In this document: positions 39,876-55,374 of the stretch, one piece after another
Position numbering within the stretch: the stretch's first letter is position 1
Layout of the letters: the number at the start of each line of letters is the position of its first letter
DNA from: Halogeometricum sp. S1BR25-6
Lineage (GTDB): Archaea > Halobacteriota > Halobacteria > Halobacteriales > Haloferacaceae
Length of the DNA: 64,000 nucleotides
Assembly (NCBI RefSeq): GCF_031624495.1
Contig: NZ_JAMQOP010000001.1
Coordinates: 744,001-808,000, forward strand
Direction of reading: 5' to 3'
Position numbers and translations under genes: made by a program
Notes under the pieces: model-generated
What the model was told of the DNA's origin: nothing
What the model saw: only the letters and a program-made list of their open reading frames with translations
Database searches by the model: none

Positions 39876-40934
39876 ATGTACTACCAAGACGGAGAGGAGA
39901 TATTCGTCATCGACGGGCACGTCCACCTCTGGGACGCCCGAGAGGAGAACATCATACACGAGGGCGGCGAGGAGTTCATCCAGTGTTTCTACGACTACCA
40001 CACCGGATTCACTCCGGAGGAGCGAGAGTGGGACCTCGATGAGTATCGCTACTACGGACCCGACCGAATGACCGAGGACCTGTTCGGGAACGCGGCGGCC
40101 GACATGGCGGTCTTCCAACCGACCTACCTGACCGACTTCTACGACGAGGGGTTCAACACCATCGACCAGAACGCCGAGTTGGCCGAGGAGTACCCCGAGC
40201 GGTTCGTACTCAACGGCGCGTTCGACCCGCGCGACGGCGAAGCCGGGATGCGCGACCTCGAACGGCAAAAAGAGGAGTACGATATCCAGGGCGTCAAAGT
40301 CTACACCGCCGAGTGGAAGGGCGACTCGAAGGGCTGGCGCCTCGACAGCGACGAGGCGTTCGAGTTCTTGGAGAAGTGCGCGGACCTCGGCATCGACAAG
40401 ATTCACGCGCACAAGGGCCCGACGATTCGGCCGCTGAACCGCGACGCGTTCGACGTCGCGGACATCGACGACGCGGCGAGTTCGTTCCCCGACCTGGATT
40501 TCGTCGTCGAACACGTCGGACTCCCCCGACTGGACGACTTCTGTTGGATCGCCGCCCAAGAGCCGAACGTTTACGGCGGCCTCGCCGTCGCGGCGCCGAT
40601 GGCGCAGAATCGACCGCGGAAGTTCGGCGAGATAATGGGCGAACTGCTGTTCTGGTTGGGCGAGGACCGCATCATCTTCGGCTCGGACTACGCCCTGTGG
40701 AATCCGGATTGGCTGGTCGAGACGGTGATGAACGCCGAACTCACCGACGAACAAAAGGACGAGTACGGCATCGAACTCTCGCCCGACGTGATGAAGAAGA
40801 TCATGGGCGAGAACGTCGCCGACCTGTACGACATCGACATCGAGGCGAAGAAAGAACAGTTCCGCTCGGACGACGTGACCGAGGAGTTCGGGCTCGGAGA
40901 CCACTACGGCGCCCCCGACGCCACCGCGGACTGA
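39876..40934 (+). CDS. Amidohydrolase of the diiron-monooxygenase accessory type (352 aa)
   Basis: IDGHVHLWDA (His15, His17) opens a metal-dependent TIM barrel of the amidohydrolase-2/ACMSD group. IHAHKGPTIRPLNRDAFDVA, VEHVGLPRLDDFCWIAAQE and IIFGSDYALWNPDWL supply further ligands. The text FNTIDQNAELAEEYPERFVL and VKVYTAEWKGDSKGWRL closely resembles the amidohydrolase that sits beside propane/butane/acetone soluble diiron monooxygenases in actinobacteria. There it is thought to assist monooxygenase maturation or activity, not classical amide hydrolysis. This is recalled similarity, without an alignment. The stop overlaps the next start (TGATG). Confidence 0.88.
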   Translation: MYYQDGEEIFVIDGHVHLWDAREENIIHEGGEEFIQCFYDYHTGFTPEEREWDLDEYRYYGPDRMTEDLFGNAAADMAVFQPTYLTDFYDEGFNTIDQNAELAEEYPERFVLNGAFDPRDGEAGMRDLERQKEEYDIQGVKVYTAEWKGDSKGWRLDSDEAFEFLEKCADLGIDKIHAHKGPTIRPLNRDAFDVADIDDAASSFPDLDFVVEHVGLPRLDDFCWIAAQEPNVYGGLAVAAPMAQNRPRKFGEIMGELLFWLGEDRIIFGSDYALWNPDWLVETVMNAELTDEQKDEYGIELSPDVMKKIMGENVADLYDIDIEAKKEQFRSDDVTEEFGLGDHYGAPDATAD

Positions 40935-41716
40935 TGTCGAGCAGCACCCACAACGACGGCGGTCCGTCCGTTCCCGACGTGCGCGAGCGACTGGACCGCG
41001 TCACCGACCCGGAACTCGACGAGTCCATCGTCGAACTCGGCTACGTCGACGACATCACTCCCCGGGGTTCGACCGTCGACGTGACGTTTTCGCTTCCGAC
41101 GGCGTGGTGCTCGCCCGCGTTCGCCTGGATGATGGCCGTCGACGCCCGCGACGAGGTGGAGTCGCTCCCGTCGGTCGAGACGGCGACGGTGACGCTCCGG
41201 GACCACATGCACGACTCGGAGATAACCGAGGGCGTCAACGCGCGCGCGTCGTTCGCGTCGACGTTCCCGGACGCCGACGGCGACGTGGCTAGCATTCGAG
41301 CCTCGCTGGACGACAAGGCGCGCGTCGGCCGACAGTTCGAGGCGCTGAACGCACTCGTGGACGCCGGTCTCACCGACCGACAGATCGTCGAGTTGCGACG
41401 CGAGGACCTCTCGCTTGACGACGGCGCCGTGTTCGTCCGGGACGGGTCGGTCGGCATCTCCGTCGACCGGGAACCGCTCGCCGAGTACGTCGAGAAGGTC
41501 GAAGCAACGGGCTTGGTCGAGACGGGTTCGGACGTGCTGTTCCGAACGCCGGAGGGTGACCCCATCTCCCCCGACGAGTTCGACCTCGTCCACAAGCGGA
41601 GTCGCCTCGCGAACGTCAACATGACCGGGCAGGGAAACATCTGCGACGCGCTCAACGAGGCGCGGTTCGACCCCGACCGACCGGAGACGTACGGTCCGGA
41701 CGGCGAGGAGTCGTGA
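40934..41716 (+). CDS. MIP18/DUF59 (PaaD-like) metal-sulfur assembly protein (260 aa)
   Basis: DPELDESIVELGYVDDI (25-41) and TFSLPTAWCSPAFAWMM with Cys59 define the MIP18/PaaD domain, involved in Fe-S or diiron centre assembly. A C-terminal extension of about 170 residues (RVGRQFEALNALVDAGLTDR; FDLVHKRSRLANVNMTGQGN) is shared with the DUF59-type protein beside propane monooxygenases, as recalled. Its ATG overlaps the amidohydrolase stop. It is followed by a zinc alcohol dehydrogenase with its own TATA box. In bacteria this trio supports a diiron monooxygenase, and no such hydroxylase gene is in the window. Confidence 0.88.
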   Translation: MSSSTHNDGGPSVPDVRERLDRVTDPELDESIVELGYVDDITPRGSTVDVTFSLPTAWCSPAFAWMMAVDARDEVESLPSVETATVTLRDHMHDSEITEGVNARASFASTFPDADGDVASIRASLDDKARVGRQFEALNALVDAGLTDRQIVELRREDLSLDDGAVFVRDGSVGISVDREPLAEYVEKVEATGLVETGSDVLFRTPEGDPISPDEFDLVHKRSRLANVNMTGQGNICDALNEARFDPDRPETYGPDGEES

Positions 41717-41789
41717 CCGGCGAACGCCCTCCGTTCCGCCCGCCGTTCTTTTCGCCGGCGTCGACCTCGGGCATCGACCGACCCGCGGA

Positions 41790-41797
41790 TTTATACC
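41790..41797 (+). promoter_or_regulatory. TATA box of the alcohol dehydrogenase gene
   Basis: tttatacc is centred about 31 bases before the ATG at 41825, so the gene can be expressed apart from the preceding pair. Confidence 0.6.
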
Positions 41798-41824
41798 GAA
41801 CGATGCGGAACTATATCGTGCACC

Positions 41825-42865
41825 ATGCTAGCAGCACGTTTGCACGAGTACACCGAGGACATGAGCGAACCGCTCTCCATCGACGAGGTCGACCGACCCT
41901 CCGTCGACGTCTCCGACGGCATCGTCGTGGAGGTCGAGGGAGCGGGGTGGTGTCAGACTGACAACCACATCATCGAGGGGATGTGGACCGACTACGTCGA
42001 GCAGACGCTCCCGATGACGCTCGGCCACGAGAACGCCGGCACCGTCGTCGACGTCGGCGAGGAGGTGAACACGGTCGAGGAGGGCGACCGGGTCATCTGC
42101 CACCCCGTCGCGACGTGCGGGACCTGTCGAGCGTGCCGCCTCGGCAACGACATGTACTGCGAGGACCTGTCGTTCCCGGGACTCACGACTGACGGCGGCT
42201 TCGCGGAGTACCTCCGCACGAACGAACGCGCCGTCATCCCGCTTCCGGGCGACGTCGACCCGGCGGATATCGCGCCGCACGCCGACGCCGGCATCACGGC
42301 CTACCACGCGGTCAAGAAGGCGGTGGACGAACTGAACCCCGGCGACGCGGCCGTCGTCGTCGGCGTCGGCGGCCTCGGACACATCGGGCTGCAGTGTCTG
42401 AACGCGATGAGCGCCGCCGATATCGTCGCCTTGGACGTGAAGGAGGCCGCTCGCGACCTCGCGTCGGACCTCGGCGCGAGACACACTATCGACCCGACGT
42501 CGGAGGATGTACCGAGTGCCATCGACGACTTCACCGACGGGAGCGGCGCCCAACAGATCATCGACTTCGTCGGCGCCGACGAGACCACCGCGCTCGGGCC
42601 CGACATCGCCGCGCCGGGAGCGGACCACCACATCGTCGGCTACGGCGGCCACGTCCACGAACCCTCCCAGACGCTCGTCGACGGCGAACTCGCCTACCGG
42701 GGGACGCTCGTCGGGCGCTACACCGAACTGCAGGAACTCGTCGCCCTCGTCGACCGGGGAGACGTCGAACTCCGGACGAGCCGATACGACCTCTCGGAGA
42801 TAAACACCGTCGCGGAGCGCCTCGAACACGGGGAAATTGAGGGTCGGGCGGTCATCGTTCCCTAG
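41825..42865 (+). CDS. Zinc-dependent alcohol dehydrogenase (346 aa)
   Basis: This MDR enzyme has catalytic-zinc ligands Cys43 and His68-Glu69 and a structural-zinc set Cys98, Cys101, Cys104, Cys112. A cofactor loop VGVGGLGHIGLQCLN indicates NAD(P) binding. Length is typical. In propane-monooxygenase clusters, a similar dehydrogenase oxidises the secondary alcohol product. Its position directly after the amidohydrolase and MIP18 genes supports that link, though the substrate is unproven. It has its own TATA box. Confidence 0.9.
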   Translation: MLAARLHEYTEDMSEPLSIDEVDRPSVDVSDGIVVEVEGAGWCQTDNHIIEGMWTDYVEQTLPMTLGHENAGTVVDVGEEVNTVEEGDRVICHPVATCGTCRACRLGNDMYCEDLSFPGLTTDGGFAEYLRTNERAVIPLPGDVDPADIAPHADAGITAYHAVKKAVDELNPGDAAVVVGVGGLGHIGLQCLNAMSAADIVALDVKEAARDLASDLGARHTIDPTSEDVPSAIDDFTDGSGAQQIIDFVGADETTALGPDIAAPGADHHIVGYGGHVHEPSQTLVDGELAYRGTLVGRYTELQELVALVDRGDVELRTSRYDLSEINTVAERLEHGEIEGRAVIVP

Positions 42866-43120: not shown

Positions 43121-43654
43121 ATGAGTGAGGCGGAGAGCTCCGTTCAGTCGTACACGCTTCGTCTCGAACTCGTCGACGAACCCGGCGAACTGCTCCGCTC
43201 GCTCAAACCCATCGCGGAGAAGGGCGGAAACCTCCTCTCTATCTTCCACGAACGAGGAAACGTCACTCCACGAGGCTACATCCCCGTCGTCGTCGACGTT
43301 GAGGCCACTCCGGACCGCTTCGAGAAGATTGTCGAAGCGCTGAGTCAGACCAATATCAACGTCATCCAGGCCGGCACCGAGCGGTACAGTAAGGAGCTGA
43401 CTGTCCTTCTCTCCGGTCACCTCATCAATACCGACTTCTCGAACACGCTCTCTCGCATCCAGGAGACCCGGAGCGCGACCGTGACTGACATCTCCATCTC
43501 CGCACCCCAGGGGTCCACCGAGACGTCCAGCGCACGCGTCCGGATGGCCACGCAGGCAGGGTCGAAAGACGAAGTCCTCGCGTCGATCAGAGAGATCGCC
43601 GAGGAGAAGGACCTCCGCATCGTGGAACCGCTCGTCGCGGGTGGCCATACGTGA
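43121..43654 (+). CDS. ACT-domain regulatory protein paired with homoserine dehydrogenase (177 aa)
   Basis: An N-terminal ACT domain (YTLRLELVDEPGELLRSLKP) with GGNLLSIFHERGNVTPRGYI and a Val/Asp-rich strand is followed by a second ACT-like half (LTVLLSGHLINTDFSNTLSR; IREIAEEKDLRIVEPLVAGG). ACT pairs bind amino acids for feedback control. The stop overlaps the start of the homoserine dehydrogenase gene by four bases. Several archaea encode the regulatory ACT part as a separate protein before hom, and this matches. The ligand is expected to be threonine or a related amino acid, by inference. Confidence 0.85.
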   Translation: MSEAESSVQSYTLRLELVDEPGELLRSLKPIAEKGGNLLSIFHERGNVTPRGYIPVVVDVEATPDRFEKIVEALSQTNINVIQAGTERYSKELTVLLSGHLINTDFSNTLSRIQETRSATVTDISISAPQGSTETSSARVRMATQAGSKDEVLASIREIAEEKDLRIVEPLVAGGHT

Positions 43655-44604
43655 ACGTCGGCGTCCTCGGCGCTGGTGCCGTCGGTGGGTCGGTGGTCGA
43701 ACTCGCAGAGGAGTACGGACACACCGTCACCGTGTTCGCCGACTCCCAGAGCGCCGTCGTGGACCCCGACGGTATCGACGCCGCGGCGGCTCTCTCGGCG
43801 AAGCGCACCGACGGCAGAGTCGGGTCGGCCGACCCGGAGGCGGCGCTGGACGCCGAGTACGACGTACTCGTGGAGGCGACGCCGACGACGCTCGGTGACG
43901 CCGAACCGGGCTTCTCGCACGTTCGGACCGCGCTCGAACGCGACCGTCATGTCGTGTTAGCGAACAAGGGTCCGATCGCCGAGCGGTACGGTGATATCCG
44001 GCGACTCGAAGCCGAGAGCGCGGGCACGGTCCGATTCGAGGCCACCGTCGGTGGCGCTCTCCCGGTCATCTCCACTATCGAGGGGTTCGGTCCGTCTCGA
44101 GTTGGCTCGCTCCATGGTGTGTTGAACGGGACGGCGAACTTCATCCTCTCGCGGATGAGCGCCGAGGGACTGGACTACGAACACGTTCTCGTGGAGGCCC
44201 AAGACCTCGGTGTGGCCGAGACCGACCCGACGTTCGACGTTGACGGGACGGACACCGCGCTCAAGGGAGTCATCGTCGCCAACCTCCTCTTCGAAGGAGA
44301 GTACAGTCTCGAAGATGCCTCCATCGAAGGTATCCAGGCGCTCTCCGGGAACATGCTCGAACTGGCGCGTGAGGACGGACAGACGGTTCGGCTCATCGCG
44401 GAGGTGCGCAACGGAAACATCCGGGTGAGTCCGCGTCTCGTTCCGAGAGAGAGTCCGGTCGCCCCCTCCGGAACGCACAATGCGGTCCAGTTGACGGTCG
44501 AAGACGCCGGACAGGTGACCCTTTCCGGTCGCGGCGCAGGCGGTGCCGAAACGGCGACCGCGGTCCTGGCCGATGTCGGGCGCTTGGGCGAAAACAGACG
44601 CTAG
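43651..44604 (+). CDS. hom: Homoserine dehydrogenase (317 aa)
   Basis: MNVGVLGAGAVGGSVVELAE is the N-terminal Rossmann motif. HVVLANKGPIAERYGDI, LHGVLNGTANFILSRM and LGVAETDPTFDVDGTDTALK are homoserine dehydrogenase signatures, the last holding the catalytic Lys and Asp region. The enzyme reduces aspartate semialdehyde to homoserine with NAD(P)H for threonine/methionine synthesis. It is short and lacks a C-terminal ACT domain; the separate ACT protein upstream supplies it. Because haloarchaea also feed aspartate semialdehyde into aromatic synthesis, the adjoining dehydroquinate dehydratase gene is noteworthy. This may be a second, specialised copy. Confidence 0.88.
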   Translation: MNVGVLGAGAVGGSVVELAEEYGHTVTVFADSQSAVVDPDGIDAAAALSAKRTDGRVGSADPEAALDAEYDVLVEATPTTLGDAEPGFSHVRTALERDRHVVLANKGPIAERYGDIRRLEAESAGTVRFEATVGGALPVISTIEGFGPSRVGSLHGVLNGTANFILSRMSAEGLDYEHVLVEAQDLGVAETDPTFDVDGTDTALKGVIVANLLFEGEYSLEDASIEGIQALSGNMLELAREDGQTVRLIAEVRNGNIRVSPRLVPRESPVAPSGTHNAVQLTVEDAGQVTLSGRGAGGAETATAVLADVGRLGENRR

Positions 44605-44635: not shown

Positions 44636-45379
44636 CTAGTCCGACAGCGGAATTTCCTTGGGGACCGATACCTCGTTCCGGAGGGTGTCCATCACGTCGT
44701 CGTCGACGCTGTTGTTCTTCGTGAGTTCGATGAGCGAGGCGAGCTTTTCGAGCGGAATCTGCCCCGGCGCGTAATCGACGTCGTCCGCCAATAGCGGCGC
44801 GTATCCGAGCTTCGAACCGTAGAGGTGACCGATGATGCGGGTGTGGCTTCCCAGTTCGCCCATCGAGATGCCGGCGACGTCGATTCCTTTCTGCGTGGCG
44901 GCGTGGACGGCTTCGAGGAGGGTGAGCGTGTCCGCTTGGTCCTGCGGAAATGTCGCTACCTTGGCGATGTCGCCGTACGCCGCACACTGTTCGATAATCG
45001 CGTCCAAAACCGGTCTCTCGGGTGTCTCCTCGAAGTCGTGGTGGGAGATGATGAGTTGCACGTCGTTTTCGCGGAACTCGTGCGCCAGCCACTTCTTCGA
45101 GCGAATCGTCTCGAACTCGATGTCGACGAATTCGACGGCGTCGAACCGCGACGCGGAGAAGAGGTCGTCGAGTCGCCCCGTGTCGTTCGCTTTTCCGCCG
45201 AACCACCGGGCCCGGTTCGTCGCGATGATCGGCAGTTCGCCGTCGTACGCCTCCAGTTGTCCGACCGGATCCTCCGCTTTGTCCATCCGAAATTCGATGA
45301 GATCAGCAATCCCGCGTGCGTCTTTCTCTCGTGTTAGATCGTTCGTTGTTGCAGCGAGAGCCGATTCCTCGATTTTCAT
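44636..45379 (-). CDS. aroD: Type I 3-dehydroquinate dehydratase-like protein (247 aa)
   Basis: The class I fold is recognisable: IEFRM with Glu29/Arg31, ISHHDFEETP with His114, the Schiff-base Lys140 in DIAKVATFP, Arg181 in SHTRIIGHLYGS, and a lid ending APGQ at 204-207. The residue before APGQ is Tyr203, where characterised enzymes have Ser (S232 in Salmonella AroD). It should convert dehydroquinate to dehydroshikimate, or act on a related substrate. Start chosen at the ATG 45379, with a TATA box 27 bases upstream. It converges with hom and lies beside a more divergent paralogue. Confidence 0.82.
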   Translation of the reverse strand: MKIEESALAATTNDLTREKDARGIADLIEFRMDKAEDPVGQLEAYDGELPIIATNRARWFGGKANDTGRLDDLFSASRFDAVEFVDIEFETIRSKKWLAHEFRENDVQLIISHHDFEETPERPVLDAIIEQCAAYGDIAKVATFPQDQADTLTLLEAVHAATQKGIDVAGISMGELGSHTRIIGHLYGSKLGYAPLLADDVDYAPGQIPLEKLASLIELTKNNSVDDDVMDTLRNEVSVPKEIPLSD

Positions 45380-45402
45380 GTGAGGTCTTATCACTCTGCG
45401 GC

Positions 45403-45410
45403 GTATAAAC
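45403..45410 (-). promoter_or_regulatory. TATA box of the aroD-like gene
   Basis: gtttatac on the minus strand is centred about 27 bases before the ATG at 45379. Confidence 0.55.
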
Positions 45411-45592
45411 GTTGGCTCTTTCCGCAATATCGCACTGCGGTCACGTCGACAGCGTCGGCTGATGCGCACACGGGCGCCGACGACTCCACACCCGTCCGCT
45501 TCAAGTTTTCTGAAACGGAGAAGTACAACAAATTATATCCAGTAGCAAACCAGCCGCTCGAAACCAAAATGGAAGAATAAAATACTGAACGG

Positions 45593-46294
45593 CTATCTGT
45601 TTCCCGACAGTCCGTCTCTATGCTCAATTCCTTCCGTATTTGTTATCGTCTCTAGCACATCGGCGAGCTGTTTCAACCCGATGTCATCCGATCGATCGTC
45701 GGGGCGAATCGGAGCGTACGCTAACGTCGACCCGTAGAACGCGCTGATTACTCGAGTGTGCTTTCCGGCCGCTCCGGTCCCGTAGCCCGCAATCTTTGTA
45801 CCCTCGCGCGATGCATCGTTCAGACACTCCAACAACACTAGCGCGTCACCCTCATCTTTGACGGAGACGACGATTTTGACGAGGTCACCGCGCTCTCGGC
45901 ATCGGGAAATGATCTCTCGGAGATCGCGTTTCGATGGGGTTTTTTCGTTGGTATAGCTCGATATTAGTACTTGGACTCCTCGTTCACGAATTCCGGGAAG
46001 TACCTCCCCTTCGTCGTCCGCGTCCTCCAACGGCACCTCCACCATCGCCACGATATCCGGCGGCGCAACGGAGACCATACTCGCCACCTCGTCGAATGCG
46101 AGCGTCTCGCCACCTTCAGTGGCCGCTCTGGGGGAGAGGACGAGCGGAATGTCGTCAGCATAACTCGACAGTTGGGCCCGTGGATTCGCCGCGCTCCCCA
46201 ACCGAAACTCAACGTAGTCGGCCAGCGTCCGGACTTCCCCAACCGTCGCCAAGTCGTCGGTCACACCCACCAGTCGACACTCGTCAACGTCCAT
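45593..46294 (-). CDS. Divergent dehydroquinate-dehydratase paralogue lacking key residues (233 aa)
   Basis: It aligns residue for residue with its neighbour: VEFRL (Glu29, Arg31), DLVKIVV with Lys140, and KHTRVISAFYGSTLAYAP with Arg181. But His114 is replaced by Tyr (ISSYTNEKTP), and the lid APGQ is replaced by an unrelated stretch (RPDDRSDDIGLKQL). So the Schiff-base lysine remains while the general acid/base His and substrate lid are lost. It may act on a different substrate, modulate the neighbour, or be decaying. A GTG nine bases upstream is an alternative start. It is transcribed separately, about 200 bases from the first copy. Confidence 0.78.
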   Translation of the reverse strand: MDVDECRLVGVTDDLATVGEVRTLADYVEFRLGSAANPRAQLSSYADDIPLVLSPRAATEGGETLAFDEVASMVSVAPPDIVAMVEVPLEDADDEGEVLPGIRERGVQVLISSYTNEKTPSKRDLREIISRCRERGDLVKIVVSVKDEGDALVLLECLNDASREGTKIAGYGTGAAGKHTRVISAFYGSTLAYAPIRPDDRSDDIGLKQLADVLETITNTEGIEHRDGLSGNR

Positions 46295-46692
46295 GTCAGA
46301 CACAGCGTCTCGGAGCGCAAAAGTATTTCCGGGGTGGTCGCGCACTGGTTGCTACGCTTCCTCGGACCACCGCCGAAAACGATCCCTTGGGACGCCGCCA
46401 GCCGACATTCAAAGATATCGGAGCATCCCAGTTCGGTTCCATCTCGGCCTCTTTCGATCGGATACCACTCACTGTTACATACATAGAGTCGTAACGAATC
46501 TTGCAACTCACTCGACTCAGCACTTCAACATTGTCAAATCCGGCTGGACCTGTCGGCGATGACCCCGACTCGAATCCCAGGCCGAACCGACAACGAGGCG
46601 GTCAAAACGAGTCGCGTTAGACACCACGCCGATCTCCTCGTCTATTGCTCGGTATCGGGCCGTAGTTGCCGCTGGCTCGTCGTTTCGAGGAC
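46295..46692. other. Intergenic region between the aroD-like paralogue and the RraA-type gene
   Basis: About 400 bases. An AT-rich stretch near 46470-46500 may carry the promoter for the aroD-like paralogue. Short frames are not convincing. Confidence 0.4.
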
Positions 46693-47550: not shown

Positions 47551-48588
47551 ATGCGTGGATTAGCGAAGACAGAGCGTACTGAAGGGTACGTCGAACTCAT
47601 CGAGCGAGAGCGCCCGATACCGGCGGCCGACGAGGTACTCATCGAGGTGGAGTACGCCGGCATGTGCGGCAGCGACGCGGGCATCTACAAGTTCAAGGCG
47701 CCGTTCGAGCGCATGGACCTCCCGACGGTCATCGGTCACGAGTACACCGGCCGTGTCGTCGAAATCGGCGAGGACGTGACGAAGTTCGCACTCGACGACC
47801 GGGTGGTCGAACGACCGATCCGGCCGTGCGGCGACTGCTACCAGTGCGAAATCGGCGAGGAGAACGTCTGTCAGCACACGGAGCTCACTGGTATCGACCA
47901 CGACGGCGCCTACGGGGAACTCATCGCCGTCCCGGCGGACGTCCTCCACCCCGTCCCCGACGGCGTCCCGGCGAAGCACGCCGCGATCGTCGAACCGACG
48001 GCCATCGCGACGCGCGCCGTCATCGAGAACTCCCGGGTTAGCCCCGGCGACCGCGTCCTCGTCGAGGGGCCGGGACCCATCGGACTGCTGTGCGCGCAGG
48101 TCGCTGCGGCGCAGGGCGGCGACGTGGTCGTCTCCGGGGTCGGACGGGACTCGAAGTATCGCCTGCCACTCGCCCGCGACCTCGGATTCGAGGCGCTCGA
48201 TGTGGCTGAGACGGACATCGCGTCGCATCGCGAGCGACTGACGGACGGTATCGGGTACGACGTCGTCTTCGACACGACGGGACACCCGTCCGGGTTGCCC
48301 ACCGCCGCGGACGAGGTGCGGAAGGGAGGCCAGATCGTGCTCGTCGGGCAGACCGGTGAGACGACGATGCCGTACTCCCCGCTCGTCCGGGCCGAAATCG
48401 ACCTCCAGTGCAGTTACGGGGCGACCTATGAGGACTTCGAGCGCGGACTGCGGCTCATTCAGGCTGGCGACGTCGATTGCGAGACGTTCGTCGACGACCG
48501 GTTCTCGCTGCTCAACGCCGAGGAAGCGTTCGAGGCCTTCCTCGCGGGGGAGACTTGCAAACCCGTCTTCGACGTCTCGGTGCTCTGA
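47551..48588 (+). CDS. Zinc-dependent sorbitol/threonine-dehydrogenase-like enzyme (345 aa)
   Basis: GMCGSDAGIYKF with Cys39, GHEYTG with His63-Glu64, and structural cysteines 93, 96, 99 and 107 identify the MDR zinc dehydrogenase family. VEGPGPIGLLCAQVAAAQG binds NAD. The pattern resembles polyol/sugar-acid dehydrogenases (sorbitol, threonine, galactitol or gluconate 5-dehydrogenase types). The context of an RraA-type aldolase, a uronate-dehydrogenase-like SDR and a TctCBA transporter favours oxidation of a hydroxy acid. Substrate not predictable. Confidence 0.88.
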   Translation: MRGLAKTERTEGYVELIERERPIPAADEVLIEVEYAGMCGSDAGIYKFKAPFERMDLPTVIGHEYTGRVVEIGEDVTKFALDDRVVERPIRPCGDCYQCEIGEENVCQHTELTGIDHDGAYGELIAVPADVLHPVPDGVPAKHAAIVEPTAIATRAVIENSRVSPGDRVLVEGPGPIGLLCAQVAAAQGGDVVVSGVGRDSKYRLPLARDLGFEALDVAETDIASHRERLTDGIGYDVVFDTTGHPSGLPTAADEVRKGGQIVLVGQTGETTMPYSPLVRAEIDLQCSYGATYEDFERGLRLIQAGDVDCETFVDDRFSLLNAEEAFEAFLAGETCKPVFDVSVL

Positions 48589-48771: not shown

Positions 48772-49680
48772 TTACGACTCCGAGGAGGCGCTCTTAACTT
48801 CGGGCGGGCCGTCCCATCGACAGCCGTCGTCCTTCGGTTCGTATCCGAGAACCTCCTTTGCGTGCTCGGTGTCGAACCACCGGGACGCGTTGTCGCTGAC
48901 GGCGTAGAACGTATCGTACGTCACCGTCTCGTTCCCGAGACAGCACTCGACGAGGTGGGCGAAGTCGCGCTGGGACGTCCACGTCGCCTTCAGTCGCTTC
49001 ACCATTCGTTCGTACTCCTCGCTTCCGCGCTCCCAGGACCCCGTTTGGGATTGGTCCCACACCTCGTCCTCGTCGCCGAGTTCGTGCTCGTTGCCTCTGT
49101 CGACGCCGCGTTCCGCGTCGCCGTACGGGTGGTCGTATCGCTCCGTCCGGACGCTCGAGATGCGGAGCGAGAATATCTGCGTCGGGTAGGCGTCGCGTCG
49201 CGCATGCGACCGGAGGATGTTCTCGCCGAAGAGCTTCGAGGCGCCGTAGTAGCCGTCGGGTTTCGGAAGCGATTCGTGGTCGAGTAGCAACGGGTACCCC
49301 TCCCCGTAGAGGTCCGGCGCGTGGTCCTCCTCGTACAGCCCCATGACTCGCTGCGAGGACGCGAACACGAGTTTCTCCACCTCGGCGTCCTGTGCCGCCT
49401 TGAGGACGTTGTACGTTCCGACGATGTTCGGTTCGACAATATCGCCGAAGTCCGCCCCGGCGTCGGACTGGGCGGCGAGGTGAATCACTGCGTCCTGCCC
49501 GTCGAAGGCGGGTCGGATCGCTTCGTAGTCGCTGACGTCGGCCACGTGCGTCTCGTAGTCTGGGTGGTCGTTTCGGTCGAGGAAAGTGAACTCGTATCGA
49601 TCCTCGCCCACCAAGTGGTTGCGCAGGGCTTCTCCCGCTTCGCCGAACGGACCCGTAATGAGGACTCTTTGCGTGCTCAT
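48772..49680 (-). CDS. Extended SDR, uronate dehydrogenase-like (302 aa)
   Basis: RVLITGPFGEAGEALRNHL is the nucleotide-binding motif, VIHLAAQSDAG the second, and YYGASKLFGEN the active-site YxxxK. SDNASRWFDTEHAKEVLGYE is a C-terminal hallmark of uronate dehydrogenases, which oxidise galacturonate or glucuronate to the lactone with NAD. Other epimerase/dehydratase roles are possible. It points away from the second zinc dehydrogenase and is preceded by a TATA box 30 bases upstream of the ATG. Likely part of the acid catabolic island. Confidence 0.85.
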   Translation of the reverse strand: MSTQRVLITGPFGEAGEALRNHLVGEDRYEFTFLDRNDHPDYETHVADVSDYEAIRPAFDGQDAVIHLAAQSDAGADFGDIVEPNIVGTYNVLKAAQDAEVEKLVFASSQRVMGLYEEDHAPDLYGEGYPLLLDHESLPKPDGYYGASKLFGENILRSHARRDAYPTQIFSLRISSVRTERYDHPYGDAERGVDRGNEHELGDEDEVWDQSQTGSWERGSEEYERMVKRLKATWTSQRDFAHLVECCLGNETVTYDTFYAVSDNASRWFDTEHAKEVLGYEPKDDGCRWDGPPEVKSASSES

Positions 49681-49903: not shown

Positions 49904-50677
49904 CTACTGCTGGGAAAGTTTTAGTTCGATGATGTTCTTTTTGTTCAGGAGCGCCGGAGCGAGCGTCTCCTCGATGCGTTCGTCTCCCATCCTGCTGAGC
50001 GGGCCGCTGATGCTGATTGCGCCGACGACCTCGTCGGGATTCGATAATATTGGAGCCGCGACGGCACTCACACCGACGAAGTGCTCCCCGCGGTTTATCG
50101 CGTACCCCCGTTCCCGCGTCTTGGTTAGCTCTTCGAACAGCGCCTCCCTGTCGACGATGCTCTCGTCGGTGAGCGCCGGAAGCCCTCGTAGATCAAGGAT
50201 GGCCTCCACTCGCTCTTCCGAGAACTGCGACAGCATCGCCTTCCCGAGCGCCGTGTTGTGCAAGTAGAGATGCGCGCCCAAGGCCGCGTTGTCGTCTATG
50301 GACTCGGGTCCCTCCGATTTGTACAGTTGGACCATGTAGCCGTTCTGTTCGGTCCCCACGTTCGCGATCTCCCCCGACTGTGCCCGGAGGTCGTCTATCT
50401 CCGGTTTCGCGGCCTGATAAAGCGGCAACTGATCGCGCAGTTGGCCCCCGGTGCGGAGAAAGAGGAAGCTGCACTCGTACCGATCGTCGTGCTTCGTCAC
50501 GTAATTGTTCTCGACGAGGGTGGCGAGGTGGATGTGGGCGGTACTCATCGGCATGTCGAATTCCGCGGCGACCTCCGAGAGCGTCGTCGGTCCCTCGGTT
50601 CGCAGGTACTCTACGATGTCGAACGCTCGTGAGACGCTCTTCAACTGCCGCGTACTCGATTGGTCGTCCTCGCTCAT
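49904..50677 (-). CDS. IclR-family transcriptional regulator, second copy (257 aa)
   Basis: A winged helix (SRAFDIVEYLRTEGPTTLSE; DMPMSTAHIHLATLVENNYV) precedes an IclR effector domain (LYLHNTALGKAMLSQFSEER; FVGVSAVAAPILSNPDEVVG). The C-terminus KKNIIELKLSQQ closely parallels the other IclR protein in this window, although the effector pockets differ. It diverges from the MBL hydrolase gene, so it probably governs that gene, the transporter or the island enzymes. The ATG at 50677 is supported by a TATA-like box 25 bases upstream. Confidence 0.93.
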   Translation of the reverse strand: MSEDDQSSTRQLKSVSRAFDIVEYLRTEGPTTLSEVAAEFDMPMSTAHIHLATLVENNYVTKHDDRYECSFLFLRTGGQLRDQLPLYQAAKPEIDDLRAQSGEIANVGTEQNGYMVQLYKSEGPESIDDNAALGAHLYLHNTALGKAMLSQFSEERVEAILDLRGLPALTDESIVDREALFEELTKTRERGYAINRGEHFVGVSAVAAPILSNPDEVVGAISISGPLSRMGDERIEETLAPALLNKKNIIELKLSQQ

Positions 50678-50697
50678 ACGAGCCCATCCCATCGTCG

Positions 50698-50842: not shown

Positions 50843-51487
50843 ATGAGCGCGGAGAGCGTCGTCGACGACATCTCGCTGATACAGTTCGAGCACGTGCGGG
50901 TGTACGTGCTGGAGGACGTACCGAGCGGAGAGACCACCCTCGTCGACACGGCGTTCGAGGAGAACGGCGAGGAACTGGTGGAAGTACTTCGAAGCGAGTT
51001 CGGCGGCGTCGACCGTGTCATCCTGACGCACGGCGACCACGGCCACCACGGAGGGCTCCCCCACGTGATGGAGGCGTTCTCCCCGACGCTGGCCGCGCCG
51101 GACAACGAGTCGAAACTGTACGAGGCCATCGAGTACGAACCGGACGTGCGGTACGAGGACGGCGACGTTTTGGAAGGCAACATCGAGGTGATCCAAGTCC
51201 CCGGCCACACGGAGGGGACGTCCGCGCTGTTACTCCGGGACCGAGATATCCTCATCTCGGGAGACGCGCTGGACGGGGCGGACCGCGCTGGACTCCCGGC
51301 CGGCTACCTCCTCCCGCCGCCGGCGCTGTTCAACGACGACCACGAGGCGGCGGAGATAAACCTCTACAACCTGCTCCAGTACGACTTCGAGACGCTGTTG
51401 GTGTTCCACGGCTCGAACGTCTTCGAGGACCCGAAGGGGAAACTCGACGACTTCCTCGTCGAACGCGAGTGGGACCCGCGTCCCTGA
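50843..51487 (+). CDS. MBL-fold metallo-hydrolase with altered metal motif (214 aa)
   Basis: VDTAFEENGEELVEVLRSEF, VILTHGDHGHHGGLPHVMEA, VIQVPGHTEGTSALLL and ILISGDALDG match the MBL fold (glyoxalase II-like). However, the canonical HxHxDH motif reads HGDHGH: the second His and the Asp have been replaced, while the first His, last His, GHT and GDA ligands remain. The zinc site must therefore be remodelled. FHGSNVFEDPKGKLDDFL supplies the final His. The substrate is probably a thioester, lactone or ester, unproven. It lies under control of the divergent IclR gene. Confidence 0.85.
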   Translation: MSAESVVDDISLIQFEHVRVYVLEDVPSGETTLVDTAFEENGEELVEVLRSEFGGVDRVILTHGDHGHHGGLPHVMEAFSPTLAAPDNESKLYEAIEYEPDVRYEDGDVLEGNIEVIQVPGHTEGTSALLLRDRDILISGDALDGADRAGLPAGYLLPPPALFNDDHEAAEINLYNLLQYDFETLLVFHGSNVFEDPKGKLDDFLVEREWDPRP

Positions 51488-51529: not shown

Positions 51530-51961
51530 TCAGTCCTCGTCGACGAACGAGGTGACGACAGGACAGGTGGCGTCGAGCAGGATAGACTGGGCGACGCTTC
51601 CGAACAGCACCTTTCCGGTCGGAGAGCGGCGTCGGGGACGGACGACGATGTACCGCGCGTTCCGCTCTTCGGCGTAGTCGATGATTTCGTCGGCCGGATC
51701 GCCCACTAACCCGACGGTTTCGTACTCGACCGAGATATCGGTCACCGCCTCCTCGGCCATTTCGGCCGCCGCGGCGCGAACCTGCTCCATATCGAGCGGA
51801 TCGTCGGCCTGCGCGCTGGTCCGTCCCAGATTCACGAACTCAGAGCGGGTCAACGCGTGGACGAAATGGACCGTATCGCCGAACGCCTCGGCCAGTCGCT
51901 CGGCCTCTTTGACTACCGTCTTCGTTCTGTCCGATCTATCTACCGCTCCGACGATTACCAT
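51530..51961 (-). CDS. Universal stress protein (UspA family, 143 aa)
   Basis: MVIVGAVDRSDRTKTVVKEA opens a UspA fold, and VGDPADEIIDYAEERNARYI is its core. The ATP-binding-type tail reads GKVLFGSVAQSILLDATCPV, close to the G-x9-G-S/T motif. Such UspA proteins often accompany solute transporters. It lies beside, and divergent from, the TctCBA genes. The family role is stress adaptation or transporter regulation; specific function unknown. Confidence 0.9.
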   Translation of the reverse strand: MVIVGAVDRSDRTKTVVKEAERLAEAFGDTVHFVHALTRSEFVNLGRTSAQADDPLDMEQVRAAAAEMAEEAVTDISVEYETVGLVGDPADEIIDYAEERNARYIVVRPRRRSPTGKVLFGSVAQSILLDATCPVVTSFVDED

Positions 51962-52083: not shown

Positions 52084-53115
52084 ATGACAGACGACAGTAT
52101 CTCTGCCAGCGCTGGGGACAGTCAGGCGAGTACGTACGGTGGTGTGAACCGGCGGAGCGTGCTGAAGGCTCTCGGCGGAACCGGTCTCGTGGCGACCGCG
52201 GGGTGCACCAGCCAGTTGTCCGGCGGGTCGAATCAGGAGTGGCCTTCCCGGCAGGTAGAAGTGGTGTCGCCGTGGTCGGCCGGCGGGGGCGCCGATCGGA
52301 CGAGTCGGGCGGTCGCCGATGCGGCGGAGAGCAACACCGACGTCTCGTGGAACGTCAGCAACCAGACCGGCGGGTCGGGGTCCGTCGGGATGAGTGCGGT
52401 GGCCAACGCGGAGCCGACCGGGCACATGCTCGGTTGTACCGCTCCCGAAATCTGCCTGTATCAGCACCTCGGCATCGCGGACTTGGGTCCGGAAGACATC
52501 ACGCCCATCATGCAGTACACCCAGATGCCCGCGGCCATCGTGGTGCGACAGAACGCCGACTACACGACGGTCGACGAGTTCCTCTCGTACGCGGAGAACA
52601 ACCAGGTGCAGATGGCCAACTCCGGAATCGGGTCCTCGTGGCACATGGCAGGCGCCGCCTGGGCGTCCGAGGCGGGAATCGACGTGCAACACGTCGCGTA
52701 CGAAGGTGCCGCGCCCGCCATCACCGCGACGGTGAACGGCGAGGCGGACTGCGCGACGGTCGGCGCGGTGGAGGTCGCCTCGCAGGTCCGAGACGGTCCC
52801 CTGACCGCGCTCGGCGTCATGTACGACGAACAGCTCGAATCGCTGCCGAACACGCCGACGATGCAGTCGCAGGGGGTCGATATCGTCATCGGATCGTGGC
52901 TCGCGCACTTCGCCCCGCCGGACCTTCCGGACGAGGTGCAGCAGTCCATCGTCGAGACGTACAACACCGTCTACGAGTCCGAGTCGTTCAGCACGTTCAT
53001 GGAGAACAATAACTTCATGCGCGTCAAGCGCGGTCCCGACGAGCTCCAGCAGTTCCTCGACGAGCGCTACGAGTTCTACGGAAACTTGGTCGAAGAGCTG
53101 AACATACAGGCCTGA
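52084..53115 (+). CDS. tctC: Tripartite tricarboxylate transporter substrate-binding lipoprotein TctC (343 aa)
   Basis: A Tat signal (Arg23-Arg24, NRRSVLKALGGTGLVATAGC) with lipobox Cys41 anchors the protein outside the membrane. WPSRQVEVVSPWSAGGGADR, QMANSGIGSSWHMAGAAWAS and GEADCATVGAVEVASQVRDG match the TctC/BugT solute-binding family. These bind carboxylates such as citrate, aromatic acids or dicarboxylates and deliver them to TctAB. tctB and tctA follow after a 280-base gap that holds another promoter. Confidence 0.92.
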   Translation: MTDDSISASAGDSQASTYGGVNRRSVLKALGGTGLVATAGCTSQLSGGSNQEWPSRQVEVVSPWSAGGGADRTSRAVADAAESNTDVSWNVSNQTGGSGSVGMSAVANAEPTGHMLGCTAPEICLYQHLGIADLGPEDITPIMQYTQMPAAIVVRQNADYTTVDEFLSYAENNQVQMANSGIGSSWHMAGAAWASEAGIDVQHVAYEGAAPAITATVNGEADCATVGAVEVASQVRDGPLTALGVMYDEQLESLPNTPTMQSQGVDIVIGSWLAHFAPPDLPDEVQQSIVETYNTVYESESFSTFMENNNFMRVKRGPDELQQFLDERYEFYGNLVEELNIQA

Positions 53116-53216: not shown

Positions 53217-53405
53217 ATGAGCACCAGTAATGCACGTTCGGGGCATCGGCAGACCACGCTCCGGCAGAAACGCGACCGAGGTGAACGGCGGCGAGACCCG
53301 ATACCGACCGTTGCGCCGTCGCCGACGAACAGAAGGTCGCGAACCGTAGGAGCGCGGGTCACGTCGATTCGCGAATACGATTTGGAACCGAGGTGGTCCA
53401 CATGA
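53217..53405 (+). CDS. Possible 62-aa leader ORF overlapping tctB
   Basis: An ATG at 53217 opens 62 codons, MSTSNARSGHRQTTLRQKRD..., Arg-rich and without recognisable features. Its TGA overlaps the ATG of tctB at 53402 by four bases, the arrangement used for coupled genes, and it lies behind a TATA box. Its basic composition is unlike real haloarchaeal proteins, so it may be a fortuitous frame or a translated regulatory leader. Confidence 0.3.
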   Translation: MSTSNARSGHRQTTLRQKRDRGERRRDPIPTVAPSPTNRRSRTVGARVTSIREYDLEPRWST

Positions 53406-53887
53406 CGGTGGGAACCGACAGGCTTCGGTCAAGTCCGCTCGCGGTCGCCTTCATCGTCGGCGCGGCGGTTGTGATACTCTTCGCGGCCCAGTTCCCGAGC
53501 GGCGGCGAGGTCGGACCGGGTTTCTTCCCCATCGGCATCTCAGCCGGCATCATCCTCTTCGCACTCGTCGAGTTGGTCACCGAGAGCGACGGTGGCCTCG
53601 ACGTGAGCGACCACGACCTTCGGGCCGCCGGCGTGGTGTTTGCCCTCGTGCTGGGCTATCTCCTGATGATGCCGCTTGCGGGATTCCTCGTGGGGACGAT
53701 ACTGTTCCTGCCGGTCATCCTCTACTACTCGGGTGTCCGCTCGCCGGCGACGATACTCCTGATGTCGATACTGCTTCCCGTCGCGCTGTTCTACATCTTT
53801 AGTCAGTTCTTCTTGGTCCCGCTCCCGGAGGGCGTGATACCGTTTTCCAGACTGCTCCCGCGGCTTCCCGTCTGGGTGATGCTATGA
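53402..53887 (+). CDS. tctB: Tripartite tricarboxylate transporter small membrane subunit TctB (161 aa)
   Basis: Four hydrophobic helices (LAVAFIVGAAVVILFAAQFP; GFFPIGISAGIILFALVELV; AAGVVFALVLGYLLMMPLAG; ILLPVALFYIFSQFFLVPLP) and the GPGFFP motif mark TctB. A GTG three codons upstream is possible. The stop overlaps the tctA start by ATGA. Confidence 0.9.
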   Translation: MTVGTDRLRSSPLAVAFIVGAAVVILFAAQFPSGGEVGPGFFPIGISAGIILFALVELVTESDGGLDVSDHDLRAAGVVFALVLGYLLMMPLAGFLVGTILFLPVILYYSGVRSPATILLMSILLPVALFYIFSQFFLVPLPEGVIPFSRLLPRLPVWVML

Positions 53888-55374
53888 TCGAGGCCATCCT
53901 CGGCGGGTTGGCGAACGTCCTCAACCCGTTCACGCTGTTCCTGATGGTCGCCGGCGTACTCATCGGCATCCTGATGGGGTCGATTCCGGGGATGACGGCG
54001 ACGATGACCGTCGCCGTCCTGCTCTCGTTCACGTTCACGATGGACCCGGGCAACGGGATGATGCTCCTGCTCGGTATCTACGGCGGCGCGGTGTACTCGG
54101 GGTCGATCCCAGCGATTCTCATCCGTACGCCGGGAACGCCGTCGGCGGCGGCGACCATCTTCGACGGCTACCCGCTCTCGCAGAAGGGAGAGGCGGGCAG
54201 AGCCATCCGCATCAGCACCGTTGCCTCGTTCATCGGCGGCGTCATCAGCGTCATCGGTCTGATGTTCTTCTCCCCGCTCATCGCCGACGCGGCGCTGCAG
54301 TTCCGTTCGCCGGAGTTCTTCGCGCTCGCGCTGTTCGGGTTGACGATCATCGCCAGCGTCAGCGGCGACTCCCTCCCGAAAGGGATGATATCCGGCCTCT
54401 TCGGGATGCTCGTCGCAACCGTCGGTATCGACCCACTCACCGGCTTCCAGCGGTTCACCTTCGGCGTTCCGGAACTGCTCACCGGCGTCCAGTTCATCGC
54501 GGTCATGATCGGATTGTTCGGTATCGCGGAGGGGATGAAGGCGTACTCCTCGGGTATCGACGGTGAGGGCAAGAAGGTCGAACAAGATATCGAGGGCATC
54601 GTCCCCTCCCTCTCGGACCTGAAGGCCATCGGTCCCGTCTCGACGCTGTCCGGCATCGCCGGCGTCCTCATCGGCTCGATTCCCGGCGCGGGCGGCGACA
54701 TCGCGGCGTTCATCACCTACAACGAGGCGACGCGGTGGATCAAGGATGCCGTCCCCTCGTTCGGTGAGGGTAACATCCGCGGTATCGCGGCCGCGGAGTC
54801 CGGGAACAACGCCAGCACTGGCGGCGCGCTGATTCCGACGCTCACACTCGGCATCCCGGGCGACTCGGTATCGGCCATCCTCATCGGCGCGCTGATGGTC
54901 CACGACGTCCAACCCGGTCCGGCGCTCTATCAGGAGGAGACGACGCTGCTGTACACCATCTTCGTCGGCTTCCTCCTCATTTACGTTCTCATCCTCCTCT
55001 TCGGGCTGCTCGGAGCGCACTACTGGGTTCGACTCATCAACATCCGGGAATCGCTGTTGTGGCCCGCCATCCTCGTCCTCTGCGTCATCGGTGCGGTGGC
55101 GCTCCGGGGCAACCTGTTCGACGCGTGGGTGATGCTCGGCGCGGGTGCCCTCGGGTACGTGCTCCGACTCCGGGGCTACCCGTTGGCGCCGATGGTGCTC
55201 GGACTCATCCTCGCGCCCATCGCCGAGACGAATCTCCGACGTTCTCTCTCGCTGTCCGGAGGCTCGCTCGATATCTTCTACACGAGTCCCATCGCACTCG
55301 TGATCATCCTCCTCAGCGTCGCGACTATCGCCGTTCCCGCCGTTCGCTCTCTCTCTTCGGGTTCCTCCGCCTGA
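53884..55374 (+). CDS. tctA: Tripartite tricarboxylate transporter large membrane subunit TctA (496 aa)
   Basis: The TctA signatures GVLIGILMGSIPGMTATMTV, YGGAVYSGSIPAILIRTPGT and GGALIPTLTLGIPGDSVSAI are plain, with about ten to twelve membrane helices. This channel subunit works with TctB and the lipoprotein TctC to import carboxylates using the ion gradient. It ends the transporter operon, and an AT-rich, gene-free stretch follows. The substrate is unknown, but the neighbouring dehydrogenases and aldolase suggest a hydroxy or sugar acid. Confidence 0.94.
   Translation: MIEAILGGLANVLNPFTLFLMVAGVLIGILMGSIPGMTATMTVAVLLSFTFTMDPGNGMMLLLGIYGGAVYSGSIPAILIRTPGTPSAAATIFDGYPLSQKGEAGRAIRISTVASFIGGVISVIGLMFFSPLIADAALQFRSPEFFALALFGLTIIASVSGDSLPKGMISGLFGMLVATVGIDPLTGFQRFTFGVPELLTGVQFIAVMIGLFGIAEGMKAYSSGIDGEGKKVEQDIEGIVPSLSDLKAIGPVSTLSGIAGVLIGSIPGAGGDIAAFITYNEATRWIKDAVPSFGEGNIRGIAAAESGNNASTGGALIPTLTLGIPGDSVSAILIGALMVHDVQPGPALYQEETTLLYTIFVGFLLIYVLILLFGLLGAHYWVRLINIRESLLWPAILVLCVIGAVALRGNLFDAWVMLGAGALGYVLRLRGYPLAPMVLGLILAPIAETNLRRSLSLSGGSLDIFYTSPIALVIILLSVATIAVPAVRSLSSGSSA

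Follow-up and report, generated by a model that had tools for sequence, protein, structure and literature searches.

Two dehydroquinate dehydratase paralogues

What role can be assigned to the second of two adjacent dehydroquinate dehydratase (DHQase) paralogues when it keeps the Schiff-base lysine of the family and carries a tyrosine at the site of the catalytic histidine? The pair lies in a 64,000-nucleotide stretch of DNA from Halogeometricum sp. S1BR25-6, the whole of which is referred to here as the window. An earlier note on this DNA had described the two genes as neighbouring DHQases, and both reading frames were found in place and within the family (Pfam PF01487, cut-off 22.2 bits), with matches of 138 bits for copy 1 and 85 bits for copy 2:

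44636..45379, minus strand: copy 1, type I DHQase (copy-1 lineage), 247 residues, catalytic His114 and Lys140 kept
45593..46294, minus strand: copy 2, DHQase-fold protein, 233 residues, H143Y and Q236D, Schiff-base Lys140 kept
45404..45409, minus strand: TTTATA, 24 nt before the copy-1 ATG, possibly an archaeal TATA box of its own

Copy 2 is located upstream of copy 1 on the minus strand, with a gap of 213 bases between them. The TTTATA element is a putative TATA box, judged by the spacing typical of archaeal promoters; a sigma-70 promoter scan, which does not model archaeal promoters, gave no match. GC3 is 0.64 in the copy-2 ORF (45593-46345) and 0.75 in copy 1, and the neighbouring genes also exceed copy 2, which suggests a lower expression or a different history for the latter.

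The two proteins are 33% identical over 223 residues, with only three gap positions in the alignment, so that the shared residue numbering used in the earlier note holds. The residue reference was AroD of E. coli K-12, as encoded in the genome record of that strain, and His143, Lys170, Gln236 and equivalent positions are given in E. coli numbering. Comparison with this protein confirmed all of the residues previously read in copy 1 (E29, R31, H114, K140, R181, Y203 and the APGQ motif from 204, in its own numbering), in addition to R56. Copy 2 likewise contains E29, R31, R56, K140 and R181, together with Y114. Its lid loop had been considered lost; the loop is present, with the motif replaced and an acidic residue (D204 in the window) at the site of Gln236.

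The fold, Lys170, Glu46, Arg48 and Arg213 are common to copy 2 and type I AroD proteins such as OE1477R from Halobacterium salinarum, for which excerpts of PMC4162585 report a measured activity and an auxotrophic deletion mutant. By contrast with these enzymes, copy 2 is devoid of His143 and Gln236, and copy 1 has Phe for Glu86 and Tyr at 232. The substitutions E86F, M203I and S232Y separate copy 1 from the textbook enzymes in all 38 aligned copy-1-type proteins, in which the Glu of the Glu-His pair is thus invariably Phe; His143 and Lys170 are kept in 38 of 38.

Copy 1 as the probable DHQase of the cell

A housekeeping aroD had been expected elsewhere in the genome (G000, 4.5 Mb), and this expectation was not borne out. 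Only copy 1 and copy 2 score above the PF01487 cut-off; a third, weak match (17.2 bits) is a DeoC/LacD-family aldolase near aroB', and no type II DHQase was found in the genome. At aroB', the zinc-ribbon and TFB genes are both present with no aroD between them. Since the genome holds no other complete DHQase, copy 1, the sole candidate, is on gene content taken to be the working housekeeping DHQase of the cell, having replaced the aroD beside aroB'.

The aroD gene is found near aroB', between the zinc-ribbon and TFB genes, in two genomes of the same genus (G041 and G038) and in G025 of the Haloferax genus, and is absent from between these flanks in G000, G039 and G040. It is also absent from the examined aroB' flanks, some of which stop short of TFB, in seven Haloferax genomes, G036, G087 and G091, all of which have copy 1. 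G102 keeps both an aroD at the aroB' flank and copy 1. Copy-1-type proteins, counted operationally as those scoring at least 209 bits with the copy-2 profile, occur in 46 of the 391 genomes of the class that were searched, and in 41 of these 46 the search at E 1e-25 gave no AroD other than copy 1 and copy 2. The genomes with further AroD proteins are G102, G320, G380, G387 and G419.

Copy 1 scores 118.8 bits with the NCBIfam aroD equivalog, under its cut-off of 139.3 bits. This was rejected as an argument against copy 1, given that two canonical AroD proteins encoded at haloarchaeal aroB' loci, used as controls, score 123.4 and 131.9 bits and fail as well. In Haloferax volcanii, excerpts of PMC8305020 describe aroD1 (HVO_0602) as 44% identical to OE_1477R, with a locus tag far from that of aroB (HVO_0792). 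By this description, its distance from aroB is as expected for a copy-1-type AroD. A literature search for Haloferax aroD1, aroD2 and HVO_0601 to HVO_0604 gave one relevant paper, which names aroD1 only.

Two further relatives were seen at other loci. In G102, an AroD paralogue adjoining the copy-1 gene (L072:8802-9543) has R48N, R82G and F145S and keeps H143, K170 and APGQ; its branch is long and its placement in the tree is unsure. In G063, a truncated AroD-like ORF of 118 residues (L074:9373-9727) is possibly the relic of a cluster paralogue.

Copy 2 as a conserved lineage

Copy 2 forms a long-standing lineage of its own and was found in 13 genomes from four genera: three Halogeometricum, seven Haloferax, two of the Haloarcula genus (one of them Haloarcula salina), and G419 of another family. 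Several relatives have no copy-2 gene altogether. An unrooted tree of 88 proteins, including some long rows and leaving out E. coli, a fragment and duplicate rows, separates copy 1 (38 proteins; support 98/99), copy 2 (13; 100/99) and canonical AroD (36; 100/99) into three clades. In a smaller tree, copy 2 lies nearest to copy 1. A recent tandem duplication was rejected on account of the three clades in these unrooted trees.

Tyr at 143, Lys170, E46, R48 and R213 are strictly conserved in the 13 copy-2 proteins, and R82 in 12, with Val in G419. Position 236 is invariably acidic (Asp in 10, Glu in 3) and never Gln. Position 203 varies (Tyr in 11, His in one, Val in one), as do positions 86, 145 and 232-235. 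Invariant columns amount to 40 of 233 in copy 2, with an enrichment of substrate-site residues among them (4 of 5, P = 0.003); only three combine invariance with a residue never seen in the other two lineages, Y143 being one. Of 36 columns that show no variation across copy 1 and canonical AroD, 15 carry the same residue throughout copy 2; many other conserved positions have therefore drifted.

The dN/dS ratio (NG86) of copy 2 is 0.25 in Haloferax (summed pairs) and 0.35 in Halogeometricum, compared with 0.07 and 0.11, respectively, for copy 1. In each of four genome pairs, the copy-2 value (0.26-0.40) is the highest among 12 cluster genes (11 in one pair), and in one pair TctB (0.26) comes close to copy 2 (0.28). 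No bootstrap 95% interval reaches 1; the widest spans 0.21-0.76. No broken gene was found among the 13 copies, whose reading frames are all open; an apparent interruption in Haloferax was rejected, the flagged stop being the natural end of the ORF after 222 residues. Copy 2 is under weaker constraint than its neighbours, and is not neutral. The earlier note had held that copy 2 is not a product of random decay, naming a dN/dS near 1 or breakage in sister strains as grounds for abandoning the idea. Neither was observed; the ratio is clearly below 1 and no copy is broken, despite a faster evolution than that of the neighbouring genes, and copy 2 is thus not decaying at random.

The surrounding gene cluster

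The pair is embedded in a group of genes with the following organization:

43121..43654, plus strand: ACT-domain protein (Pfam ACT 21.7 bits, under the cut-off of 27), an extra copy of a near-universal haloarchaeal gene
43651..44604, plus strand: homoserine-dehydrogenase paralogue, the second hom of the genome
46693..47382, minus strand: RraA-like aldolase, above the NCBIfam cut-off of NF006731 (4-carboxy-4-hydroxy-2-oxoadipate aldolase/oxaloacetate decarboxylase)
47551..48588, plus strand: zinc alcohol dehydrogenase, threonine-3-dehydrogenase-like
48772..49680, minus strand: NAD epimerase/dehydratase-type SDR, the cluster marker, with uronate dehydrogenases as nearest solved relatives
49904..50692, minus strand: IclR-family regulator
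50843..51487, plus strand: metallo-beta-lactamase-fold (MBL) protein
51530..51961, minus strand: universal stress protein
52084..53115, plus strand: TctC, tripartite tricarboxylate transporter receptor
53393..53887, plus strand: TctB
53884..55374, plus strand: TctA

The SDR, IclR, RraA-like aldolase, zinc alcohol dehydrogenase, MBL and TctABC genes around the pair are conserved in Halogeometricum, Haloferax, Haloarcula and beyond. In some lineages the same stretch contains TRAP transporters, glycerate kinase and glyoxylate-reductase-like genes, which point to organic-acid catabolism as the probable function. An amidohydrolase and a second zinc alcohol dehydrogenase at 39876-42865 of the window are kept in G039 and G040 (93-98% identity) and were not found in the Haloferax clusters.

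The SDR marker, called at a score of at least 497 bits (next best, 318), is present in 34 of the 391 genomes, 33 of which contain a copy-1-type AroD; a further 13 genomes have copy 1 but no marker (Fisher P = 3e-36 for the association, a value overstated by the kinship of the genomes). Copy 2 occurs in 12 of the 34 marker genomes and in none of the other 357 (P = 2e-14, overstated for the same reason), leaving 22 marker genomes without it; this sample omits G039, the thirteenth genome with copy 2. The one marker genome that has no copy-1-type AroD, G365, has a canonical-type AroD with intact catalytic residues beside the SDR (L181:9569-10240) and another linked to aroB'. The former suggests that a DHQase was recruited separately into this cluster.

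Among 36 tabulated copy-1 regions, ACT lies within 3 kb of copy 1 in 33 and hom within the same distance in 20, and copy 2 belongs to the region in 11. No other neighbour of copy 1 is as constant as the extra ACT gene, which is present even where hom is missing (e.g., G039, G036, G419), and whose product might regulate copy 1. ACT was rejected as a peculiarity of copy 1 because 389 of 391 genomes have a homologue and the cluster gene is an extra copy. Similarly, the cluster hom was rejected as the housekeeping hom: all 20 genomes surveyed for this gene have a hom, and those with the cluster gene have a second elsewhere.

In 12 of 13 genomes, no more than about 550 bases separate copy 2 from copy 1. 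The exception is G291, where copy 1 is found together with hom and ACT about 12 kb away, the distance between copy 2 and the SDR gene being 1.2 kb; copy 2 is thus associated with the catabolic genes no less closely than with copy 1. The earlier note had entertained a regulatory partnership between the two proteins. A copy 2 that is needed by copy 1 is unlikely, as 34 of the 46 copy-1 genomes have no copy 2, and the two genes are separated in G291.

A copy-1 AroD at or near the housekeeping aroD locus, close to aroB' or the zinc-ribbon gene, was observed at five loci (L186 in G412, L192 in G286, L194 in G295, L197 in G359 and L198 in G414), where cluster genes mostly adjoin it. In G412 the entire cluster is situated between TFB and zinc-ribbon/aroB'. 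Such placement may be the route by which copy 1 displaced canonical AroD.

The presence of a DHQase in the cluster makes quinate or shikimate catabolism a conceivable pathway. Among the scanned ORFs, neither a dehydroshikimate dehydratase nor a gene for ring cleavage could be recognised, and the literature search yielded nothing usable on quinate in haloarchaea.

Structure and possible function of copy 2

The AlphaFold model of copy 2, computed from 16 sequences, shows a predicted DHQase fold (pLDDT 84, pTM 0.84). Its best Foldseek match is 3js3 (E 4.5e-14), and it superimposes on 2yr1 with a Z-score of 23.4 over 216 residues at 2.4 Å. The model places Tyr114 close to where strand 5 ends, and Lys140 within strand 6. 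This arrangement recalls that of class I aldolases of the N-acetylneuraminate lyase (NAL)/dihydrodipicolinate synthase (DHDPS) type, in which the Tyr and the Schiff-base Lys presumably occupy strands 5 and 6. The Tyr precedes the Lys by 28 residues in E. coli NanA and DapA, and by 26 in copy 2. NAL/DHDPS form a different family with no sequence match to copy 2 and a different substrate site, and the possible analogy is confined to spacing and strand order.

According to excerpts of PMC9074039, the H143Q variant of E. coli AroD has no activity, and the Aro1 protein of Candida albicans contains an inactive type I DHQase domain, its catalytic His changed to Gln, the task being performed by another enzyme. 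Judging from these two His-to-Gln cases, copy 2 is most likely not a DHQase. The Aro1 domain resembles copy 2 as a retained type I DHQase with a substituted catalytic His. It differs in being part of a fusion protein and compensated by a type II enzyme, whereas copy 2 is a separate protein encoded in a catabolic cluster, and the same substitution is fixed in every member found.

The most plausible reading of copy 2 is that of a re-tooled Schiff-base protein belonging to the cluster pathway, either an enzyme or a ligand trap. It would represent a third haloarchaeal lineage of the DHQase fold, tied to a cluster for the presumed uptake and catabolism of an organic acid. With His143 replaced by Tyr, it would have lost DHQase activity while keeping the Schiff-base lysine and the residues predicted to bind a carboxylated keto substrate; its most likely function would be to bind a pathway keto acid as a Schiff base, with Tyr114 catalysing in place of His. 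The new Schiff-base chemistry suggested by the earlier note is possible. We consider the chances about even that copy 1 is the working DHQase and, at the same time, copy 2 a Schiff-base protein of the organic-acid pathway without DHQase activity. A more specific proposal is offered tentatively: that copy 2 is a new Schiff-base lyase or dehydratase, with Tyr114, Lys140 and Asp204 on the dehydroquinase fold, in an undescribed haloarchaeal organic-acid pathway whose cluster includes DHQase, hom and ACT paralogues of its own, and whose DHQase displaced the housekeeping one in many lineages. The highest dN/dS of the cluster, the small set of invariant columns (40/233), the 22 of 34 marker genomes without copy 2 and the variability at positions 203 and 86 count against the reading of copy 2 as a Schiff-base protein of the pathway.

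The main rival to a Schiff-base protein with Tyr for His is a ligand-trapping pseudoenzyme, which would bind dehydroquinate, dehydroshikimate or a keto acid from the pathway through a complete or half-formed Schiff base and serve not as a catalyst but as a sensor, buffer or allosteric partner. We regard it as possible, if somewhat doubtful. It would account for the retention of the binding residues and the lysine upon loss of the general base, and is in line with the stalled catalysis reported in the title of one paper for an E. coli His-to-Ala mutant, as well as with the proximity of copy 2 to copy 1 in 12 of 13 genomes and its lower GC3. However, most copy-1 genomes (34/46) do without copy 2, the two genes are far apart in G291, copy 1 has a putative TATA-like element of its own, and a fixed Tyr together with a fixed acid exceeds the needs of simple trapping.

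It is unlikely that copy 2 is a dispensable paralogue slowly losing its function, the conserved residues being remnants of fold and ancestry. The elevated dN/dS, the drift of the lid sequence and of positions 86 and 145, and the patchy presence of the gene would fit such a course, but the changes of His to Tyr and of Gln236 to Asp or Glu are fixed in four genera where neighbouring sites vary, the dN/dS intervals exclude 1, and 13 of 13 frames are open. It is very improbable that copy 2 has remained a DHQase in which Tyr acts as the general base, specialised for the catabolic pathway: Lys170, E46, R48 and R213 are all kept and the intact AroD beside the SDR of G365 implies that the pathway may use a DHQase step, but H143Q is dead in E. 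coli (PMC9074039, in excerpt) and an acid replaces Gln236 in every copy-2 protein.

Implications

The fold and family of copy 2 are already known; no description of its active-site variant was found in the searched literature. The profile matches of copy 2 in Pfam and NCBIfam are to 3-dehydroquinate dehydratase families only, so that automatic naming would probably designate it as one, which constitutes an annotation hazard. Copy 1 would provide a clear case of a cluster-borne paralogue that took over an essential biosynthetic step. Canonical AroD, copy 1 and copy 2 form a natural series in which the lysine and the carboxylate site are kept, Tyr takes the place of the general base and an acid that of the lid Gln, and this series makes the re-tooling of a textbook covalent enzyme testable.
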